In this document: piece by piece, positions 1,298 through 23,479 of the stretch | Numbering within the stretch: position 1 is the first letter of the stretch | Layout of the letters: every line of letters begins with the position of its first letter | DNA from: a virus | Strand: one strand, 5' to 3' | Length of the DNA: 23,479 nucleotides | Virus record (IMG/VR): IMGVR_UViG_3300025122_000165 | Coordinates: 1-23,479 of that record | Made by a program: the position numbers and the translations under genes | The notes under the pieces: model-generated | The model's database searches: none | What the model saw: the letters and a program-made list of their open reading frames with translations, nothing else | Told to the model about the DNA's origin: nothing

Positions 1298-2026
1298 TTG
1301 AAAGGAGCAAAAAAAATAAAACGTCGGAAATCGGGTTCCCGGCTATATTTTAGTAAAGAAACGCAGGATCACATTATTACATATCAGCAATCAGAGTCAA
1401 GCGAAGAAAAACACACAATTTATGTGAAAGATATTTTGCCGGCATTTGACAAGTTAGTTGAAAATTTAATTTTTGTATATGGGTTTATAACCCCGCAAGA
1501 GAATTATCATGATCTTAAGAGTGATTGTGTTAGTTTTCTTTACGAAACAATCGCAAAATGGGATCCTATACGAGGCACTAAAGCATTTTCGTATTTCAAT
1601 GTGGTAGCCAAAAATTGGCTCATAATGAATTCTAGAAAATCTAAAAAGCGTGCAATGAGAAATGTTAGCTTAAGTGACCTTAGCGTATTAAATGCATTTG
1701 ATAAAAAATGTTTAGCAAATTATGATTTTATTCCTTCTCCTGATGAAATTTTAATTAAGAAAAATCTACAAAACGAAATACTGGAGATTTTACATAGGAT
1801 TGAATCCAGAGTAAAAGGTCAAAAGGAACAAATATGCATTGCTGCTATCATCACTGTATTTAATAATATAGAGCAATTAGATTTTCTTAATAAAAGGGCA
1901 ATCTTTATTTATGTGCGTGATATATCTGGATTAAATTCCAAACAACTTTCTGTTGCGATGTCTGCTATTAGGAAACACTATAGAGAGTTAGCTCATGAAC
2001 GAATTAATTCGGAGAGCATCATATGA
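1298..2026 (+). CDS. Late transcription sigma factor, T4 gp55-like
   Basis: Probable phage sigma factor that redirects host RNA polymerase to late promoters. Residues about 50-112 resemble sigma-70 region 2, which binds core polymerase and the -10 element: LKSDCVSFLYETIAKWDP, then RGTKAFSYFNVVAKNWL, like the 'F-D-P-x-R-G-x-x-F-x-x-Y' core of sigma factors and gp55. A basic segment (SRKSKKRAM) follows. Residues about 195-235, ending LNSKQLSVAMSAIRKHYREL, could form a helix-turn-helix. Length is 242 aa, somewhat longer than T4 gp55 (185 aa). The N-terminus is uncertain: TTG at 1298 has a GGAG eleven bases upstream, while ATG 1279 lies in another frame and is joined to this one only by a shift at an 8-A run (1309-1316). 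The stop overlaps the next start (ATGA). Its place before virion genes fits a late regulator. Confidence 0.77.
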   Translation: MKGAKKIKRRKSGSRLYFSKETQDHIITYQQSESSEEKHTIYVKDILPAFDKLVENLIFVYGFITPQENYHDLKSDCVSFLYETIAKWDPIRGTKAFSYFNVVAKNWLIMNSRKSKKRAMRNVSLSDLSVLNAFDKKCLANYDFIPSPDEILIKKNLQNEILEILHRIESRVKGQKEQICIAAIITVFNNIEQLDFLNKRAIFIYVRDISGLNSKQLSVAMSAIRKHYRELAHERINSESII

Positions 2027-2396: not shown

Positions 2397-3935
2397 ATGA
2401 CGGATGGTCTAGATTATATAGATTATGTGACTAGTGGAAGAGATCATGGTGAGTATTCTTTTGAAGAAGCAACTTCACTTGAGAATCTACCACAACCTAT
2501 TCTCCGTGCGGCCGTCGTCGCAGAGGTTCTCTATGATCCTGGTGTCATAAGCGAAGATAAGCTAGAACAGCTTGAAGATGGAGATCCCGAGACCGGCATT
2601 CCTAGGTGTATTAATAAGGTGCACCTCCAAACAGCTCCTAGAAACTCTATTCTTGCTAGAGACATCACAGATGCATCAGATAGACAACAAAGAGCATCAA
2701 TATTGGCTTACCCTCTTTTCCCACCCAGTTTGTGTCTTCCGGTCAAGCCAGGAGAAACTGTCTGGTTGATAGATGCTTCCCCTCAGGAGGGTTCAAGACT
2801 TACATATTGGGTGTGTCGTATTTCTGCTCCTGATAATGTGGACGATTTAAACTTTACTCACTATGACAGAATTTCTCTAGAACGTGCGAAACAAACCAAG
2901 GCCAAAACCAAACCGACTCAACCTGAGTTTTTCAATGGAGCCGGTCAAACGGAGAATTATACACTCCAAAAGCCGGATGATTATGAGCTTATTTTTACAC
3001 AAGCAATTCCAAATGTCAATCATACAATTACGAATGAAGCAGTGCCTCGTTTTAAAAAGCGTCCAGGTGATTTAGCACTCCAAGGATCCAATAATACACT
3101 TATCTGTTTGGGGGAGGACAGGGGTTGGACAGCTGCACCTCCTCCAATTGGGACCGGTCGTCCTTCTGATGCTACAACAGATCATGGGGGTCCCAATCCC
3201 AATATTAGTAATGCTACATGGAGGGCGGGTCCGACCGTAGGGGCTCAGGCCCCGTCAGTTCTTTTAAAGGGAACAATTGACATTGTTGCCGGAAGGGGAG
3301 TGAAGGGTACCAAAACAGCACCATTGGTAATTGAAAATTCACGAAATTTTGAGGAAACAAATAAAAACCCAGTGTTGTTTCCCCCCAATGTTGAAAACAA
3401 CTATTATACAAATCCATGTGAGGGTGATCCGGACTTTGTAGAGGATTTAAGTCGAATATATGTCTCTATGAAGACTTCTGGAGATACGAATTTCGGATTG
3501 GTGTATCCACCAATTGTAGGCGCGGACCTCGCGTTACCAATTGATGACGCCCCTTATGTGATTGTTAAGTCAACTCACGTTAGAGTAGTTGCCAGAGACA
3601 GTGTTAGGTTGGTTGCCGGTCCGGCATCAAATTGTGTTGCTAGTTTTTTGGCTGATGGAACTATGGCCTTAGCCGGTACAAAAATTGTTACTAGCGGGCC
3701 CGTAGAGCTTGGAGATGGATTAATCCCACCGACAGAGCCGCTAGTTTTAGGAAACCAGCTAGTCATTCAACTCAATGCCATAATTAGTGCAGTTAATGCG
3801 GGGTTCTTAATTGCGGACTCTAATATAACCGAGGTGGCCACCGAAACGGGATTTGCTGGTCCGCTCCAACCCCAACAACCTCTCCCCGCCCTCGATCCGA
3901 AAAATATACTGAGCACTCTGGTTAGATGTAAATAG
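2397..3935 (+). CDS. Baseplate hub/spike protein with gp5-like OB-fold
   Basis: Probable central hub or spike of the contractile tail, equivalent to the non-enzymatic parts of T4 gp5. Residues about 33-157 match the N-terminal OB-fold region of gp5-like proteins of T4-related aquatic phages: ILRAAVVAEVLYDP, then APRNSILARDITDA, YPLFPPSLCLPVKPGETVWL and YWVCRISAPDNVDDLNFTH. The middle (about 160-380) is Pro/Gly/Asn-rich and low in helix. Residues about 384-440 (VIVKSTHVRVVARDSVRLVA, then SFLADGTMALAGTKIV) are short beta repeats that look like a spike beta-helix. A helical-looking tail follows (LVIQLNAIISAVNAGFL). At 512 aa it approaches T4 gp5 (575 aa), yet I see no lysozyme-type catalytic domain. 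The start has AAGGGA about nine bases upstream. The gp25- and gp6-like genes follow after the palindrome. Confidence 0.8.
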   Translation: MTDGLDYIDYVTSGRDHGEYSFEEATSLENLPQPILRAAVVAEVLYDPGVISEDKLEQLEDGDPETGIPRCINKVHLQTAPRNSILARDITDASDRQQRASILAYPLFPPSLCLPVKPGETVWLIDASPQEGSRLTYWVCRISAPDNVDDLNFTHYDRISLERAKQTKAKTKPTQPEFFNGAGQTENYTLQKPDDYELIFTQAIPNVNHTITNEAVPRFKKRPGDLALQGSNNTLICLGEDRGWTAAPPPIGTGRPSDATTDHGGPNPNISNATWRAGPTVGAQAPSVLLKGTIDIVAGRGVKGTKTAPLVIENSRNFEETNKNPVLFPPNVENNYYTNPCEGDPDFVEDLSRIYVSMKTSGDTNFGLVYPPIVGADLALPIDDAPYVIVKSTHVRVVARDSVRLVAGPASNCVASFLADGTMALAGTKIVTSGPVELGDGLIPPTEPLVLGNQLVIQLNAIISAVNAGFLIADSNITEVATETGFAGPLQPQQPLPALDPKNILSTLVRCK

Positions 3936-3963
3936 TGTGCTATAGCACATGTGCTATAGCACA
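3936..3963. repeat. Perfect 28-bp palindrome: two tandem copies of a 14-bp palindrome
   Basis: TGTGCTATAGCACA, itself a perfect palindrome, occurs at 3936-3949 and again immediately at 3950-3963, so the whole 28 bases are also a perfect palindrome. It begins on the base after the hub/spike stop codon (TAG 3933-3935). In RNA it can form a 12-bp stem with a CAUG loop, or two small hairpins. The next bases are GT-rich (ATGTGTTGTT) with no U-run, so it is not a classic intrinsic terminator. It could be a terminator, an RNA processing or stability element between the gp5-like and gp25-like genes, or a double operator for a dimeric regulator. The rest of the gap (3964-4051) shows only a Shine-Dalgarno sequence near its end; I see no convincing promoter. 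Confidence 0.85.
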
Positions 3964-4051
3964 ATGTGTTGTTCGGCCAATTTAATGTTTATGTGCTCCA
4001 GTTATTCGCAAAGGATCATATTTAATTTGTGATACTTTAAAGAGGAATAAT

Positions 4052-4546
4052 ATGCCAGATAGTCAGAATTATAAAAAATATGATTTCAAAAGTGTGGGAC
4101 AAACACAAGCCGATATCAATGAGTTAAGAGATACGTCACTTCTTGCTGTCCCTGTGGGGATTAAGACCCCCATTCAGTGGGGGACAGAGGGAGACGGGAT
4201 TTTTGCAATGCATAAACGTTTGGCAGATCAAATTGCAGATAATCTCAGAAATTTACTTTTGACCAATCATGGAGAGAGATTGGGCCTTTATAATTTTGGT
4301 GCTAATTTATTAGAGTTAGCATTTGAGCTAGGATCAGACGCCGTGGATGCTGAAGCCATGAGAAGAATAAGCACCGCCATACGTATATACATGCCGTTCG
4401 TAAAATTACATGAATTTATTCCATTCAATGCCAATCAGGAAAGTAATACAGGCATTGCACATAAGGGATTCAGCGTTATATACAACTTGCCTGATTTAGG
4501 CGTATTTAATAAAAGAATTGACATAACATTATATGCGGTAGGATAA
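4052..4546 (+). CDS. Baseplate wedge protein, gp25-like (GPW/gp25 family)
   Basis: Probable baseplate wedge component equivalent to T4 gp25, which sits by the tail tube and sheath and helps start sheath assembly. The family core is clear at residues about 38-130: IQWGTEGDGIFAMHKRLADQ, then IADNLRNLLLTNHGERLGLY and NFGANLLELAFE, followed by AMRRISTAIRIYMPFVKL. The NHGERL segment corresponds to the conserved 'T..GERv..p.fG' motif of the family. At 164 aa it is slightly longer than T4 gp25 (132 aa), mostly from an N-terminal extension of about 35 residues. The ATG has AGAGGA at normal spacing. The gp6-like gene starts three bases after its stop; adjacency of gp25- and gp6-like genes is usual in contractile-tail clusters. 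Confidence 0.9.
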   Translation: MPDSQNYKKYDFKSVGQTQADINELRDTSLLAVPVGIKTPIQWGTEGDGIFAMHKRLADQIADNLRNLLLTNHGERLGLYNFGANLLELAFELGSDAVDAEAMRRISTAIRIYMPFVKLHEFIPFNANQESNTGIAHKGFSVIYNLPDLGVFNKRIDITLYAVG

Positions 4547-4549
4547 AAA

Positions 4550-6400
4550 ATGCCAATTGATATTAAGAAACAACTCAAGCAGGTGCGTAGTCGAAACTAT
4601 TTGTCGAAAGATTTTGATAGCTTTCGAGCAGAATTACTTTCATATGCTAGAATATATTTTCCGGATAAGATTAAAGACTTTTCGGAAGCTTCATTGGGTG
4701 GACTGTTATTGGATATGGCAGCGATGGTAGGGGATTCATTATCATTTTATATGGATCATCAATTTAATGAACTAAATCCACTAACTGCTATTGAAACAAA
4801 TAACATTATTAATCATCTTAAGAGTGCCGGAGTTCCCATTGTTACAGCTTCTCCAGCCTCTGTCACGGTTAATTTTTCAATACTGGTACCGAGTGAGACA
4901 GATTCGTTCGGAGAGCGAAGACCAAAAAGATCTGCGTTGCCAATTATCGGAATGGGCACCGTGCTCCGCGGTAATAATGGAATTAAGTATAACTTGGTGG
5001 AAGAATTAAACTTTAGTCGAATAACGGCCGGGGGTGATTTATTCGCAGCCGTTAAAATAACGGAAGTCGATTCGAGCGGGTTGCCGTCTGAGTATCTTAT
5101 GAGCTTAAACGGGATTTGCTTGTCGGGAAGGGAAAAAACTGAGGCTGTAACCGTCGGTAATGTGCATGTTCCTTTTCGTGAAATGGTGTTGGCCGAACCG
5201 AATGTGACCGATATTATTTCTGTGGTTGACAGTAACGGAAATGTTTATCATGAAGTTTCTGCTCTTACAGAAGATGTAATATTTGGGGGTACTCCAACCA
5301 TAGGTTCTGACAATACTGTCGTTGAACAAGAGATAGAGATTATACCCGCTCCTCATCGTTTTGTCAGGGTCGTAAATCCCAAATCAAAAATTACCTCAAT
5401 TCAATTTGGTTCTGGGAGAGCTGAGACACTAGATAATGATATCGTTCCGGATCCTAGTGATTTAGCTCTTCCTCTATATGGGAAAAAAACGTTTCCTAGA
5501 TTTGTGATTAACCCTAATTCATTATTAGATACTCAGACTTTGGGAATCTCTCCGACAAATACTACACTACGGATTAAGTATCGGCATGGAGGAGGTCTTT
5601 CACATAATATAGGGGTAAAAGAAATTACTACCATCGATTCTTTGATAATGACATTTGAAAGGGAGCCTCTTCCTCGCGATGCAGAGAGTGTACGTACTTC
5701 TATAACAGTTATTAATTTAGAGAAAGCTACTGGGGGTTTACCTTCTCCTACACTCGAAGATTTGAGAGCTTCGATTCCGGCTACTAGGCATATGCAGTCC
5801 AGGATTGTAAGTAGAGCTGATTTATTGGCTAGAATTTATACTCTTCCTTCACGTTTTGGGAGAGTTTTTAGGGCAGGGATTAATGCAAATCCCAATAATC
5901 CGCTAGCATCTGTTTTACATGTAATAAGTAAAGATGAAAACGGGTATTTAGTGCCCTCGTCAGATCCCTTAAAGAAAAACCTAAGTAAATATTTAAACGA
6001 ATACAGGCTAGTATCTGATGCAGTTGATGTTGTAGACACTCAGGTGTTGAATTTTGGTATACAATTTAAAGTTATTGTTCATCCCCACGCTAATAAACAC
6101 CTTGCAATCCAGAATGTTATTAATAAACTTAAGAATATTTTGGTTGTTGGAAATTTTCAAATCAACCAGCCAATCATTTTGGCGGAAATTATAAACATTG
6201 TTATTAATGCTGATGATGTTATATCTCTTGTAGAAATGCCACGTATTACATCAAAGTTTGGATCTGACGCAGACAGAGTTTATGGATATACGTCATTTAG
6301 GCCCGCAAATCTTACGGTTCGTGGGATGGTTGTTCCACCCCCGGGCGGTATTTTTGAATTAAAGTATCCGGATTTTGATATAGTCGGGACCGCAGCATAG
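4550..6400 (+). CDS. Baseplate wedge protein, gp6-like (baseplate J-like)
   Basis: Probable main structural protein of the baseplate wedge, equivalent to T4 gp6, whose dimers form the inner ring around the hub. The N-terminal region (about residues 14-95) is characteristic: RNYLSKDFDSFRAELLSYAR, then FSEASLGGLLLDMAAMVGDS and LSFYMDHQFNELNPLTAIET. The central part is beta-rich. A later segment, AGINANPNNPLASVLHVISK, and a C-terminal region with repeated hydrophobic strands (VLNFGIQFKVIVHPHANKHL) fit the J-like core. Length (616 aa) is near T4 gp6 (660 aa). The ATG follows AGGAT at close spacing, three bases after the gp25-like stop, so the two are co-translated. No truncation or frameshift is visible. 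Confidence 0.9.
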   Translation: MPIDIKKQLKQVRSRNYLSKDFDSFRAELLSYARIYFPDKIKDFSEASLGGLLLDMAAMVGDSLSFYMDHQFNELNPLTAIETNNIINHLKSAGVPIVTASPASVTVNFSILVPSETDSFGERRPKRSALPIIGMGTVLRGNNGIKYNLVEELNFSRITAGGDLFAAVKITEVDSSGLPSEYLMSLNGICLSGREKTEAVTVGNVHVPFREMVLAEPNVTDIISVVDSNGNVYHEVSALTEDVIFGGTPTIGSDNTVVEQEIEIIPAPHRFVRVVNPKSKITSIQFGSGRAETLDNDIVPDPSDLALPLYGKKTFPRFVINPNSLLDTQTLGISPTNTTLRIKYRHGGGLSHNIGVKEITTIDSLIMTFEREPLPRDAESVRTSITVINLEKATGGLPSPTLEDLRASIPATRHMQSRIVSRADLLARIYTLPSRFGRVFRAGINANPNNPLASVLHVISKDENGYLVPSSDPLKKNLSKYLNEYRLVSDAVDVVDTQVLNFGIQFKVIVHPHANKHLAIQNVINKLKNILVVGNFQINQPIILAEIINIVINADDVISLVEMPRITSKFGSDADRVYGYTSFRPANLTVRGMVVPPPGGIFELKYPDFDIVGTAA

Positions 6401-6408
6401 GAGTAATT

Positions 6409-8421
6409 GTGTATTTTATATTAACGGCTAGTAAAGATACTTACGTTACCAATAAGGTTATTAATAATGCTTTTAGCGCATCGGATGCCAATGTGGGAAG
6501 AGCATCTACATTGGATCTTTTTCGTCTATACAATGAGTCGACTCTTCCAAGCGGTTCAGGAGTTATGAGCACGGGGGTGCCAAATAATATCAATGAACTG
6601 TCAAGGTTGATGATTAAATTTAATTACGAGAAGATAACATCTTTAATGAATAATACGTTGGATTTAAATTCTTCTGATTTTCAATGCCATCTTAAGTTAT
6701 ACGATGTTATGGGAGGTCAAGCAACACCTTCAGACTTTACTGTAATGGCTTTTCCATTATCACAATCATTTGATGAGGGTATAGGAAAAAATATTGTTTC
6801 ATTCTCTGATTTAGGCTGTACAAATTTTATTACAGCGTCATATAGTAACTCCACTGTTTATCCTTGGTACATGTCGGGTGCCAACCAGGAAGGAATTATT
6901 GACCTTACGGTCTCTACCCCCGTTGCAGCCACAGCTGATCAATTTACGTTTAGCGGGATTGCAACTGAAGACGGAGTAATAACGCTTATAAGTTATGATA
7001 ATGGAACTAGCTTTACGACTAAAACTTATATTGCAAAGGCCGGTTCTACTACCGGTACGGAGCAAAGTGATGGTACGATTGCATTTGATTCCGGTGTCGA
7101 TGCTGACGCCTCGGCAGCACAACTAGAGATAGCAATTGACGGTGTAACCGGGCATAATGGAAAGATAGGTACTACTCTTGCGGGGGCTTCACTTACCTTA
7201 GCACAAACTGTGGCCGGCGTTGAAGGTAATACCAAAATTAAAACGTCGGCTGGATTTAACGATAGCTGTAGTACAAACCCTCCAGCAAGATTTACGGGAG
7301 GAACTAGTAAATATCCTGCAAATATTGATTATATTGTGTCCGGGAATTTAAATGATGGTAATGGGATGACGGGATTGGGGGTAGCTCAGCAATTTGTAGA
7401 GGGAAGCGAAAATTTATCCATGAATATTACTACGATCGTTTCGGCTACCGTTGCTGGTATTTTACCCGATTGTGGGTTGCGTATATCGTTTACCGGTTCG
7501 CAGGAACAGGATAACAAAACGCGTTTTGTGAAACGATTTGCATCTAGGCACGTTTCAAATTTTAATTTACGTCCCCGAATAGAGGTTTCATATAATGATT
7601 CCTTGATTGATAATCATAAAAACTTTTATTTTGATTTAAGTGGTTCACTATTTCTTAAGAATTTCCACCGTGGAATTCCGGCAAATATCCTATCAGGATC
7701 TTCTCTTACGGAAGTTACCGGCACAGACTGTATTTTGGTAACCCTACGATCAGGTTCATGGAGTCAAGCCATAAGCGCTTCGCAGATGCAGGCCGGAACA
7801 ATGATGAACGATACCAATAAAGGGGGTGTTGTTGAGACCTACAATTATGTGACCGGCGTATATTCTGCTTCATTTGCCATATCGTCCTCCGATAGTAGGG
7901 TTGTAGACTTTAGTACATCACTAGCAGATATGGTATCTCGAACAGGGTCAATAACGTTTGATGAATACTGGAGTTCTGCCGATGGACTAACGGGATATTA
8001 TACTGGAAGCATCACCGTAGACAGAATTCCTCGATATGCGTTTAACGTAAACCCTCGCCGATTGGAGTTAATTGTTACGAATGCTAAAAGTGAATATACA
8101 TTTGGTACTAAGGCGCTTTTTAGAGTATTCGTGAGGGATTTTGAAGAAACGCAAAAAGTCAGTAGGTTACCTTATAGTTTAAATAGCGTAATATTGGAAA
8201 AGGTTTATTATCGTATACGTGATACTGTTGATAATACAATTGTAGTTCCTTTTAAGACCACGAATGAGGGAACAAGGTTATCATCGGATTCTGGAGGGAT
8301 GTTTTTTGAGACATACGTGGATTTTGCAAAGGGAAGAACCTATACCATTGATTTTCTTATTCAGGAAGCCGGTATTGAAATCATAGAAGAGGGTAAAAAT
8401 GTTAACTTTAGTATTAGATAG
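6409..8421 (+). CDS. Virion structural protein with an inserted domain, peripheral baseplate candidate
   Basis: A 670-aa protein that I recognise, from memory, as a type of uncharacterised structural protein found beside gp6-like genes in large aquatic myoviruses. Characteristic stretches are the N-terminal 'YFILTASKDTYVTN' with 'LSRLMIKFNY', the central 'FVEGSENLSMNITTIVSATV' and 'RFVKRFASRHVSNFNLRPRI', and the C-terminal 'VILEKVYYRIRDTVDNTIVV', which precedes a conserved Ser-Asp rich beta segment. Residues about 165-300 form a separate Thr/Ala/Gly-rich beta domain that appears inserted (listed on its own). No enzyme motif, signal peptide or membrane segment is seen. The start is GTG, supported by GGAG at 6400-6403 which overlaps the gp6-like stop codon. 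Likely role is a peripheral baseplate or fibre-anchoring protein, inferred from position only. Confidence 0.75.
   Translation: MYFILTASKDTYVTNKVINNAFSASDANVGRASTLDLFRLYNESTLPSGSGVMSTGVPNNINELSRLMIKFNYEKITSLMNNTLDLNSSDFQCHLKLYDVMGGQATPSDFTVMAFPLSQSFDEGIGKNIVSFSDLGCTNFITASYSNSTVYPWYMSGANQEGIIDLTVSTPVAATADQFTFSGIATEDGVITLISYDNGTSFTTKTYIAKAGSTTGTEQSDGTIAFDSGVDADASAAQLEIAIDGVTGHNGKIGTTLAGASLTLAQTVAGVEGNTKIKTSAGFNDSCSTNPPARFTGGTSKYPANIDYIVSGNLNDGNGMTGLGVAQQFVEGSENLSMNITTIVSATVAGILPDCGLRISFTGSQEQDNKTRFVKRFASRHVSNFNLRPRIEVSYNDSLIDNHKNFYFDLSGSLFLKNFHRGIPANILSGSSLTEVTGTDCILVTLRSGSWSQAISASQMQAGTMMNDTNKGGVVETYNYVTGVYSASFAISSSDSRVVDFSTSLADMVSRTGSITFDEYWSSADGLTGYYTGSITVDRIPRYAFNVNPRRLELIVTNAKSEYTFGTKALFRVFVRDFEETQKVSRLPYSLNSVILEKVYYRIRDTVDNTIVVPFKTTNEGTRLSSDSGGMFFETYVDFAKGRTYTIDFLIQEAGIEIIEEGKNVNFSIR
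6901..7308 (+). other. Inserted beta-rich domain within the 670-aa structural protein
   Basis: Residues about 165-300 of the 670-aa protein differ from their surroundings in composition: rich in Thr, Ala, Gly and Ser, with almost no Arg. The order is an Ig-like start (DQFTFSGIATEDGVITLISY), a strand with FTTKTYIAKAG, a helix-like stretch (ADASAAQLEIAIDG), then GHNGKI, ASLTLAQTVAGVEGNTKI and a closing RFTGGTS. From memory, this 'helix - HNG - LTLTQ - GNT - FTGG' order recurs in otherwise unrelated phage structural proteins. Sequence on both sides (YPWYMSGANQEG before, YIVSGNLNDGNGMTGLG after) reads as one continuous host domain. Domain limits are estimates. Confidence 0.55.
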
Positions 8422-17434: not shown

Positions 17435-17457
17435 TATTTCATGTGGGCTAAGCCGCT
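17419..17457 (+). repeat. Short in-frame direct repeat across the fibre gene stop
   Basis: TAAGCCGCT occurs at 17419-17427, in the last codons of the fibre-like gene, and again at 17449-17457, exactly 30 bases later. Both copies are in the same frame: the gene ends Lys-Pro-Leu-Asp-stop, and the second copy would read Lys-Pro-Leu-stop if the TAA were read through. The remaining gap (to 17488) holds AAGGAT, the ribosome binding site of the next gene. Confidence 0.6.
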
Positions 17458-17488
17458 TTAGAATTGGGATTAAGGATATTTAAATAAC

Positions 17489-18991
17489 ATGGCCGGAATA
17501 TTAAACAGTAAAAATCGTATATTAGACGTTCTTATAACTCCTCCCGGGAGGGCCCAAGCCGCCAATGGTCATATGCAGTTTCGTTATGTGACGCTCACAG
17601 ATGGGCATGCTTTTTATGAGGCGGGTACGGGATTACCAACGGCCTCAAACGTTGCGTCAGATGCAGGGGATAGAATATATTTTGAAGCCACGAGTCGTTT
17701 TCAAGACACTATTACTCTAGAGACCGATTTAAACGGAGTAATTACTTTTGAGGATTTTAAACTGCAGGTACCGGATTCAGCTATAGCTGGACAAATGGAA
17801 TCAAAAGGAAATCACTTGGTTGTGAGTGGCGTATTTCCAACGGGATCCATTATAAATCCCTTGATAGGTGGTTTACCTGACGAAATTACACGTGGAATGA
17901 CCGCGAGTTATGGACAACAATATTTTCTTTCTACGCATGATCCCTTTGGTAGAAGTGATGAATTTAATACCGACAAGGACACCGTAGACTTTTCTTTTAG
18001 GCCCCAGCCGCAATTCGATGCCGCGGGGATTGTCATTCCGGATATCCCCGGTGCCCCCCCGGCGTTGATCGATGGCGGTGACTCGACTTCCTTAAAAAGC
18101 CATTTTTCGGAGATATGGAAGGATGAGAAATTATATAAACATGTTAATTTTATGTTTCTACCTCCCGTCAATAAACTTCCTGCTGAGGTTCACATATTGG
18201 AGATATTACCATATCTCATGATGAATCTGGATTTAGCGAATATTCCTGACATAAAAACGTTTAAGACTTCTCCTGCGTCGGATAAGTTTGATGATTATGT
18301 GAAAGTATTGAGGTGGTTGATACAGTCGTCGGTTTCTAACGAGGATGTTAATTGGAAAGAGGCTTTTTCGTCGACACTTTCTGATCCGTTCATAGTAGAC
18401 TCTAGTTCAAAAAAGCCATTGCAGAATATAATTGACAAAAACATAACATTTTTAGATCAACAAACTGATGAAATACTTACTGCGGCCAAGATGGTCTATA
18501 TGGGAAATTATCCCAGTTTTGTTGTTCCCGATTATAGTTTAGTAAAACGCTATAAGGTATTACAGTCATATGTTGATATGCAAAAAACGATAATGGACAT
18601 AAATCTAAATTGGAATAAAATCGATTTTACTGAATCATCTTCGGACAACAATATCATAATGCAGATTTTTGAGTTTCCAGAAAACGAGAACGTAATTAAC
18701 AAATTAGCAGTTATTGATGGTGGAACTTTGATTGATAATAATAAGTTCGGTCCAGATCAGAGACTTTTTCATGTGGGTAAAATTTATCAAACAAATCAAT
18801 TAAACTGGGAGAATTCGGGAGATGTTGATGGGGGTGGAGAATTATCTCTTACAAAATTTGTAAATATATTTGATATTGTGATGCATGATGACACATATGA
18901 CATTAGGACTAAAGAGACATACCTCGGTCTAGGGGGTGATACATATAATCTTTCTACTGAGTTGCTTGATAGTATGGTCGGCACCAATTAA
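17489..18991 (+). CDS. Virion structural protein, unknown function (500 aa)
   Basis: A 500-aa protein whose N-terminus (GILNSKNRILDVLITPPGRA, then MQFRYVTLTDGHAFYE) matches, from memory, a widespread group of unassigned phage structural proteins that begin 'GILd.KsRi.D..iT..GR.q.a.G.m...y...tD'. The rest is not recognised: a Pro-rich linker near residues 165-195 (VIPDIPGAPPALIDGGDS), a mixed helix and strand region, and a C-terminal part with FGPDQRLFHVGKIYQTNQLN and KFVNIFDIVMHDDTYD. There is no membrane segment, signal peptide or enzyme motif. AAGGAT eleven bases before the ATG acts as ribosome binding site. The gene after it begins 17 bases past its stop. Its constant company with baseplate genes suggests a tail or baseplate component. 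Confidence 0.75.
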   Translation: MAGILNSKNRILDVLITPPGRAQAANGHMQFRYVTLTDGHAFYEAGTGLPTASNVASDAGDRIYFEATSRFQDTITLETDLNGVITFEDFKLQVPDSAIAGQMESKGNHLVVSGVFPTGSIINPLIGGLPDEITRGMTASYGQQYFLSTHDPFGRSDEFNTDKDTVDFSFRPQPQFDAAGIVIPDIPGAPPALIDGGDSTSLKSHFSEIWKDEKLYKHVNFMFLPPVNKLPAEVHILEILPYLMMNLDLANIPDIKTFKTSPASDKFDDYVKVLRWLIQSSVSNEDVNWKEAFSSTLSDPFIVDSSSKKPLQNIIDKNITFLDQQTDEILTAAKMVYMGNYPSFVVPDYSLVKRYKVLQSYVDMQKTIMDINLNWNKIDFTESSSDNNIIMQIFEFPENENVINKLAVIDGGTLIDNNKFGPDQRLFHVGKIYQTNQLNWENSGDVDGGGELSLTKFVNIFDIVMHDDTYDIRTKETYLGLGGDTYNLSTELLDSMVGTN

Positions 18992-21657: not shown

Positions 21658-23479
21658 AATTCGCAGGGGTAAATTTAAAACGCCCATTCGACGTCTTACA
21701 CTATTCGAGACACATTCATCCCTACAGAATGATGCTCTAGTTCGGCGACAAAGAGTAAGTTCTTTAGTAAAATCGACACCGCCAGCGAAGCTCCGCGCCG
21801 CAATGGGCGCTTTACCCAGGACAAATTTACGTAGTTCTCTTTCACGTCGAAGTGGCATGCCGGCATTTGTTCCAGCTCAAAAAGTCTCTAGAAAAGCAAT
21901 ACAAAATGTAGGCATACCTACTTTGTCACAAGTTATAGGTTCGATACATGCTGGATTTATTAGTGAGGCAGTTGATGCTCCTACTCCCGGTGGCCGTAGA
22001 CTTTTAGTTTCAAAGCCGGATTCTAGTGATGAAAAAAAACGAGCTCTTTTTCATCAAAGACACATTAGTGAGCTAAGTAAATCAGCCACGAACCAGATAA
22101 AGAAAAGAAGCACAGGTACACACCTATTATTTCAGGGTGACGAAGGTAAGACTATCGAAAAGCAGGAGACGACCCAACAGTCTAAGCCATATATGGCGGG
22201 GGGTGAGGATCTAGAGGGTCACCTTATTCCTCCTGGGGGGGGTGGTCGAGCTACAATTCTTGCATTTTTGAACTATCATGCCATTGATAATTATTACGGG
22301 GATGCGGACATGGACGCCAGTAATAAAAGCGATAATGAGCTCAACGTTACTCCCATTACAATAGGCGAGCTTTTAGAGCTTCGTATAAGAAATAATCACC
22401 TTCGGTATGCAAATGCCAAATATTGCCATAATGAACTTAGCAAGATAACATCCAATACCGGTGGAACACTTGTAGGTTTACGAAATGAGGCAAATAAGGT
22501 GATGCAATTCTTCCATGAACATGTTTGGATCGCTGATGCTATATTAGGCTGGATTCGTCAAGCTGAAGAATCACTAGACATTCTGGGTAGTTGGCAACAA
22601 TTTTCGTATGGAGATGTACAGAGTATCTATAATAATTCATATAAGGACTATTCCTATCTTCCACCACCAACTAATTTTGTAGACGGTATTGGTGAATATT
22701 TGGGGTTCGATAGTGTTGAAGTACAAGCAAATTTCTCAAATACTCGTGCGTATTTACAAATTGTGCATGATTTGAAGATGTCTCTATCGAGGAAGTGGGG
22801 AGTGGGATCCCCTCTATTGTATTGGCCAGATAATGTAAAGACATGGGCACGAACCGAATTTGCACCGGAAAATAATATTGAGGGTTTACCAAGAAAACTG
22901 GAGCCCATTTTAACTGTTAACGGGTATATTTTTGGCAGTGGTATAATCACCGGTGAAGATACCATGGAGACCCAGGGACCGGGCGTATTTAAGGGAGGGG
23001 GGTTCTTCAATAAGGGCGGGGTTAACCCCGCCGGTTGGGACATTACAGTACCTCAAGTGGGGGTACTGGATGTTTTCGGTACAATGGATGGTATATATGA
23101 AATTAAGCACGCTGATAAATCTCTGGAAATATCTAGCTTTTTTTTACCTCTTATGGTTTTATCTAGAGAGTTGACACAATCATCAGGGTTGGGATATCTT
23201 CATTCTACACCAGGCGGCGCAATTTTGGGTCGTGATTTAATGGAGAATCACGTGGATGATGTTTTTGGGTCGGTCCATACGGACGGGATTTTAAAAGCAG
23301 GTGAACACCATAACACGTTACGCTTTTTTCCCATGGGAAAGGACCCGGATTCGGGCCTTGAGGGCGCATGGATGCCCGAGATACTGCACCCCAACACTGA
23401 ACCCGTAGTTAATCCAATATACGCAACAAATCTAAACTGGGATATAGTGAAACTAATGCCGTTCAATCCACCCGGCACC
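21647..23479 (+). CDS. Large protein of unknown function, 3' end outside window
   Basis: An uninterrupted frame of 611 codons runs from ATG 21647 to the last base of the window without a stop, so the gene continues to the right. GAGGA at 21634-21638 gives a good ribosome binding site, and the start overlaps the upstream gene by 11 bases. The first 70 residues are very basic (MAFKIRRGKFKTPIRRLTLF, later RTNLRSSLSRRSG) and nearly free of acidic residues. A central helical-looking region holds ELLELRIRNNHLRYANAKYC, GTLVGLRNEANKVMQFFHEH and LGWIRQAEESLDILGSWQQF. A Gly-rich beta-like part follows (GPGVFKGGGFFNKGG, then VPQVGVLDVFGTMDGIYEIK). I do not recognise the family. It is probably another virion protein by context. 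Minus-strand frames in this interval are shadows. Confidence 0.7.
   Translation, partial: MAFKIRRGKFKTPIRRLTLFETHSSLQNDALVRRQRVSSLVKSTPPAKLRAAMGALPRTNLRSSLSRRSGMPAFVPAQKVSRKAIQNVGIPTLSQVIGSIHAGFISEAVDAPTPGGRRLLVSKPDSSDEKKRALFHQRHISELSKSATNQIKKRSTGTHLLFQGDEGKTIEKQETTQQSKPYMAGGEDLEGHLIPPGGGGRATILAFLNYHAIDNYYGDADMDASNKSDNELNVTPITIGELLELRIRNNHLRYANAKYCHNELSKITSNTGGTLVGLRNEANKVMQFFHEHVWIADAILGWIRQAEESLDILGSWQQFSYGDVQSIYNNSYKDYSYLPPPTNFVDGIGEYLGFDSVEVQANFSNTRAYLQIVHDLKMSLSRKWGVGSPLLYWPDNVKTWARTEFAPENNIEGLPRKLEPILTVNGYIFGSGIITGEDTMETQGPGVFKGGGFFNKGGVNPAGWDITVPQVGVLDVFGTMDGIYEIKHADKSLEISSFFLPLMVLSRELTQSSGLGYLHSTPGGAILGRDLMENHVDDVFGSVHTDGILKAGEHHNTLRFFPMGKDPDSGLEGAWMPEILHPNTEPVVNPIYATNLNWDIVKLMPFNPPGT

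Follow-up and report, generated by a model that had tools for sequence, protein, structure and literature searches.

What does a perfectly doubled palindrome do inside a phage baseplate cluster, where it begins on the base after a stop codon? The window analysed here is an entire virus record of 23,479 bases, to which our searches for further copies apply, and its phage baseplate genes all run in one direction. At 3936–3963 the perfect 14-bp palindrome TGTGCTATAGCACA occurs twice, exactly and without a spacer, each copy being a perfect 5-4-5 dyad; the whole 28 bp reads TGTGCTATAGCACATGTGCTATAGCACA and is a direct repeat of the 14-bp palindrome and also one 28-bp palindrome. Neither copy is assigned a strand; copy 1 (3936–3949) forms the 5′ arm of a 28-nt hairpin and the identical copy 2 (3950–3963) its 3′ arm. 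The stop codon TAG of the ORF at 2397–3935 occupies 3933–3935, and the element begins on the very next base. An exact sequence check agrees with the first-pass annotation on this arrangement. It had also said that the 14-mer occurs nowhere else in the window, and no third site within 3 mismatches of TGTGCTATAGCACA was found in the record, the search giving these two alone; the gap that it called the longest is indeed so (3936–4051, 116 nt; the runner-up between main ORFs is 54 nt at 17435–17488). TRF reports an array at 3936–3968 with 2.3 copies, that is, with a partial third copy.

The flanking genes are on the plus strand. The upstream ORF (2397–3935, 512 aa) adjoins gp25 and gp6 genes in relatives too; it had been called a hub or spike gene, a label that no family or structure search confirmed, as profile searches of PHROGs, Pfam and PDB returned nothing meaningful. 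Profile searches do bear out the name given to the downstream gene, a gp25-like baseplate wedge protein at 4052–4546 (PF04965, 31.7 bits against a cut-off of 27.2), and a profile search identifies the next, at 4550–6400, as a gp6-like baseplate wedge protein. Relatives differ from the window here, with a small ORF or two separating the 512-aa gene from gp25 (186 and 95 aa at 4555–5402 of locus L012, one of them with a cysteine-rich segment; 89 aa at 7797–8066 of locus L011), where the window has 116 nt and none of these. A 22-codon ORF opens at 3964, straight after the hairpin, with no sign of being a gene. Read-through of the stop codon was considered and rejected: only 7 codons would be added before another in-frame TAG, within copy 2, so that nothing is gained.

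The doubled element is not a product of chance at this composition. It is the sole perfect hairpin in the window with arms of at least 10 (loop 0–8), for which about 0.25 are expected per window in 200 order-1 simulations, and none of 200 such simulations produced arms of 14. Exact 14-bp tandem copies number one in the window against 0.00 expected (200 simulations). The 14-bp unit taken singly is unexceptional, since this genome carries an excess of palindromes (seven others in the window have arms of at least 7, against about 1.7–1.9 expected, most of them within ORFs); it is the exact tandem doubling that is exceptional.

Folded as RNA, the 28-mer forms a 12-bp stem with a 4-nt CAUG loop at −17.2 kcal/mol (z −4.5 against shuffles). 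The copies pair with each other at this energy and not as two separate 14-nt hairpins, one copy by itself reaching −4.7 kcal/mol. The best local minimum free energy in the region from the stop codon to gp25 is −18.8 (z −4.7), and the 28-mer as single-stranded DNA folds at −11.6. Rfam 15 gave no matches above gathering score in the window.

Among viral_contigs we found 66 loci by the gp6-like protein, 8 by the gp25-like protein and 1 by the 512-aa protein; the nearest relative is a 267-kb record (locus L012, genome G001) with about 60% identity in the gp6-like protein. Regions upstream of gp25 were reduced from 54 to 31 non-redundant ones, the window included. A hairpin score was possible for 22 of the 30 relatives; in 7 the gap was too short, and 1 lacked an upstream stop codon in its contig. 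A comparable hairpin precedes gp25 in none of the 22, where the most extreme values are −10.3 for energy (L041) and −3.1 for z (L012); conservation therefore supports no function. The first-pass annotation had made the weight of the element depend on its presence at the same junction in close relatives; it is absent there in all 22, the nearest of which is just ~60% identical in the gp6-like protein. The palindrome, at up to 2 mismatches, is likewise missing from this junction in 10 of 10 related records, two of which have one unrelated 2-mismatch match elsewhere, near chance level. Neither the exact 28-mer nor the doubled 12-mer core with 0–12 nt between copies occurs in viral_contigs, and a DNA similarity search of 3800–4100 in the phages collection gave nothing. 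Missing from the junction in relatives, and in doubled form from viral_contigs, the doubled palindrome is, judging by sequence comparison, apparently specific to this lineage.

The doubled 12-mer core has a single match in genome_contigs, an intergenic array of Aminicenantes with no link to this phage. At 3438–3550 of that locus (L080) stand three palindromes of the TTCGTGCYATAGCACGAA type, a pair of which lie 21 bp from each other, in an arrangement that resembles an operator array; that Aminicenantes genome has no other site that matches the 14-bp core with up to 2 mismatches.

As an intrinsic terminator the hairpin has the stem but not the tail. Its 12 bp, with 5 G-C pairs by the scan count, make the stable stem that a terminator needs, if only a moderately G+C-rich one. 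The first-pass annotation had remarked on the lack of a U-run, rightly: the tail ATGTGTTGTT (3964–3973, plus strand) is U-rich but interrupted, and scores 1.28 against 4.0–6.0 for six hairpins of G001. A consensus terminator scan picks the hairpin at its minimum threshold only (5 U in an 8-nt window), and finds 2 terminator-like sites in the window against a shuffle mean of 2.9, which is no excess. We also applied a terminator score of the d'Aubenton-Carafa type. The window hairpin receives −34 on the plus strand and −32 on the minus strand by this score. G001 hairpins after stop codons receive 32 to 69 in six cases and 6.8 and 2.1 in two more; one at 183009–183032, with a weak U tail and far from any called stop, receives −14, and one at 36826, within a called ORF, 57. 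Intergenic hairpins with arms of at least 8 number 22 in G001 (about 5 expected by area), 4 in G002, 2 in G003 and 4 in G006.

Position separates the window hairpin from the G001 terminators as well. These are likewise perfect intergenic stems, of 10–13 bp and in some cases spacer-less at the centre (177771, 187002), but the strong ones after stops are mostly U-tailed and start 22–31 nt past the stop; the one at 177771 starts 8 nt past, and one at 226002–226025, with a weak U tail, 4 nt past. The window stem starts 0 nt past the stop, and its tail is interrupted. A stem placed so close to the stop codon would have its 5′ arm covered by a ribosome that is terminating. Because of its scores relative to the G001 hairpins, its tail and its distance from the stop, the 28-bp hairpin is a poor intrinsic terminator, and the doubt voiced earlier about a standard terminator is upheld on all of these grounds.

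Hairpins behind genes need not be terminators. In E. coli, hairpins that lack a U-tract are found at defined 3′ ends, where exonuclease trimming stops after Rho-dependent termination, as described in PMC13289151. The window element is like these U-tract-less hairpins and the REP elements, as described there, in being a strong hairpin behind a gene with no usable U-tract. It is also placed as they are, between a gene end and the next predicted unit, 54 nt before the octamer described below. REP elements form repeated families, whereas the window element is single in its record and much less G+C-rich. The stretch after the hairpin (3964–4016) has 8 C and 12 G; it is not C-rich, and there is therefore no rut-like sign. 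Only 1 of the 10 merged hairpins with arms of at least 8 in the window is intergenic, so that position by itself is weak evidence. On anatomy, the U-tract-less 3′-end hairpin is the closest mechanism that would fit, with the proviso that it is an E. coli mechanism and may not be that of the host.

Downstream of the hairpin, 35 nt before the gp25-like start, lies the late-promoter-like octamer CATATTTA (4017–4024, plus strand), such that the element is 54–81 nt upstream of it. Octamers of the form ATATTTAT or ATAATTAT recur in the last 70 nt before gp25 among relatives. The best octamer, at up to 1 mismatch, is present in 19 of the 31 upstream regions; across 30 shuffled sets, the top octamer of each set was present in 9–13. 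The broader pattern NATA(T/A/C)TTA, set after the sequences had been viewed so that the octamer count against shuffles is the independent part, precedes gp25 in 23 of the 31 non-redundant regions, window included, and is missing in L003, L006, L011, L019, L033, L047, L068 and L069; 21 of the 23 sites fall 13 to 38 nt upstream of the start. The window has 10 plus-strand instances of the pattern. One of these, the late-promoter-like octamer GATATTTA, is found at 17475–17482, 14 nt before the ORF at 17489; CATATTTA and GATATTTA occupy the two longest gaps in the window. The octamer was also considered as a genome-wide promoter in G001 and found unconvincing: the scanned segments have 26 occurrences before starts in the forward sense and 26 for the reversed control pattern, no overall excess, with a small rise at −40 to −30 from starts.

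A possible reader of this motif is encoded in the same cluster. The ORF at 1298–2026 (plus strand, 242 aa), which is conserved beside the baseplate genes in relatives, was modelled with AlphaFold2 (mean pLDDT 79.8, pTM 0.45) and is called sigma-factor-like from its Foldseek matches, of which those listed are almost all transcription-initiation or sigma entries, none below E 0.001 and with low TM-scores. It has no Pfam or PHROG match, and its sequence profile gave chance matches only against PDB. On the structural model it is a weak candidate for a late sigma factor with the octamer as its target. Our inference, a lead and not proof, is that gp25 is preceded by a late promoter which a phage sigma factor would recognise. 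In T4 the late promoter pairs with the sigma factor gp55. The window resembles the T4 late system in that one AT-rich octamer precedes structural genes and is accompanied by a small sigma-like protein of the phage, and differs in the octamer itself, here NATA(T/A/C)TTA, and in that the sigma-like ORF lacks a Pfam or PHROG match. The T4 late promoter is given as TATAAATA in PMC3014915.

T4 also has a hairpin in the leader of gene 25, which sits between the Shine-Dalgarno sequence and the AUG (PMC3014915), and both this split ribosome-binding-site hairpin and the window element are hairpins upstream of a gp25 gene. The T4-type arrangement was rejected for the window: 88 nt separate the end of the stem from the ATG at 4052, and the stem is upstream of the octamer. 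Lying upstream of the promoter-like octamer, the hairpin would therefore not be in a message begun there.

The reading that we tentatively prefer is that duplication of a 14-bp palindrome gave this lineage its own U-poor RNA hairpin, sited where the upstream transcript has its 3′ edge. A palindrome of a kind common in this phage group would have been doubled exactly once, in tandem, behind a stop codon, and the doubled copy would have yielded a single 12-bp stem. The stem would most probably stop 3′-to-5′ exonucleases, and at most pause RNA polymerase or weakly terminate it. It would mark the end of a message with the sigma-like, 122-aa and 512-aa genes, and the wedge genes would have a late-type promoter to themselves, at about 4017. 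We infer the RNA end at the element, its protection by the hairpin and the role of the octamer as promoter. Arguing for such a 3′-edge hairpin are the strong fold, the intergenic site, the shared octamer, the sigma-like ORF in the same cluster, and the strong intergenic hairpins that G001 likewise has behind stop codons, some of them weak-tailed. Arguing against it are the absence from 22 relatives, the lack of a rut-like sign, the zero distance from the stop and the octamer result in G001. The first-pass annotation had offered an operator, an mRNA processing site and a hairpin separating the expression of neighbouring genes; of these three the boundary hairpin fits best, by its strong fold and the shared octamer before gp25, and the operator gets no support.

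A functionless duplication is nearly as likely as the 3′-edge hairpin, and we give it considerable though lesser weight: slippage or template switching at a tolerant intergenic site would have produced a tandem duplication that folds but is unseen by selection. The partial third copy reported by TRF agrees with this, as do the absence of the element from relatives, the absence of the doubled core from viral_contigs, and the seven other palindromes with arms of at least 7 in the window, which belong to a group-wide excess. It has against it that no other exact 14-bp tandem copies occur in the window, and that a gene end with a promoter-like motif downstream is the usual place for meaningful hairpins, position being weak evidence. 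An operator, with two dyad sites at which a dimeric regulator of phage or host would control the downstream genes, is decidedly unlikely. Each copy is a perfect 5-4-5 dyad, and the Aminicenantes intergenic region has the same 12-bp core in two places 21 bp apart, plus a near-copy; but the centres in the window are 14 bp apart, which, unlike the 21 bp in L080, puts them on different helix faces, the site is 54 nt upstream of the octamer and behind a translated gene, and there are no further copies in the record and none, at up to 2 mismatches, at the junction in 10 related records. We think it very unlikely that the element is an ordinary intrinsic terminator with a degenerate U tail, even with a 12-bp stem free of mismatches, an 8-nt stretch with 5 U picked by the scan, and related genomes that clearly use hairpin terminators: its score is −34, whereas six of the eight G001 hairpins after stops reach 32 to 69, and its stem is 0 nt past the stop against 22–31 nt (one at 8) for the U-tailed ones. 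Least credible is an assembly or polymerase artefact, in which the second copy was added in sequencing or assembly; the record is a single metagenomic contig and no independent copy of the phage was found, but there is no positive sign of error and the flanking ORFs are intact.

The element is thus real, apparently lineage-specific and folds well, and is likeliest a U-poor 3′-edge hairpin between transcription units, with neutral duplication close behind. Taken singly it matters little: it probably marks where one late transcription unit gives way to another in an uncultured phage group, and it exemplifies a hairpin that would have arisen in one step through the doubling of a palindrome. We regard it as mostly ordinary.

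The palindrome excess, if it holds, would matter more than the single element. The window has 167 spacer-less perfect palindromes with arms of at least 4 against 114 in order-3 Markov simulations, or 164 against 110 with the element cut out. In G001 the excess appears in 14 of 14 pieces, at 1.26 to 2.23 times order-3 Markov simulations, with inverted repeats of loops 3–6 near expectation (0.94–1.19), and 237 of the 256 possible 8-bp palindromes are present, so that the excess does not depend on particular sequences. G002 and G006 have ratios of 1.14–1.56 in every piece, and G003 is mixed (0.95–1.35). When synonymous codons were shuffled within ORFs (arms at least 5), the ratios were 1.77 for the window, 1.90 for G001, 1.79 for G002, 1.35 for G003 and 1.52 for G006, against 0.64–1.10 for six control phages. 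Ten control phages in 11 segments (T4, lambda, phiKZ, immuto, Mel-JY01, S-PM2, LR756508 twice, SPO1, crAss001 and CcrColossus) ranged from 0.57 to 1.22 at arms of at least 4, the 1.22 of S-PM2 equalling its own spaced control. The excess palindromes are 8 bp and longer, mostly within ORFs, and neither composition nor codon usage accounts for them.

Over 53 non-redundant relative loci, mostly baseplate genes, the effect is weak and uneven (pooled ratios 1.11, 1.08, 1.27, 1.14 and 0.89 by falling identity), and in 166 alignments of relatives at 75–98% identity palindrome arms diverge about as much as flanks and spaced controls, which gives no signal that palindromes are either retained or newly created. 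A literature search on palindrome excess in phages found nothing addressing it. Most controls have no excess or a deficit, and an excess calls for a mechanism. It is possible, if rather unlikely, that a process which makes or favours spacer-less palindromes of 8–14 bp operates in this phage group, with the doubled palindrome as its most extreme outcome; that would mean either an unrecognised mutational process, such as strand exchange at the symmetric centre, or selection on two-fold symmetric DNA. The excess spans the window, L081–L094 (G001), L095–L100 (G002) and L107–L113 (G006), and is strongest in L087–L088. The window also has an 18-bp perfect palindrome, GGCGGGGTTAACCCCGCC, at 23015–23032 within its last ORF.
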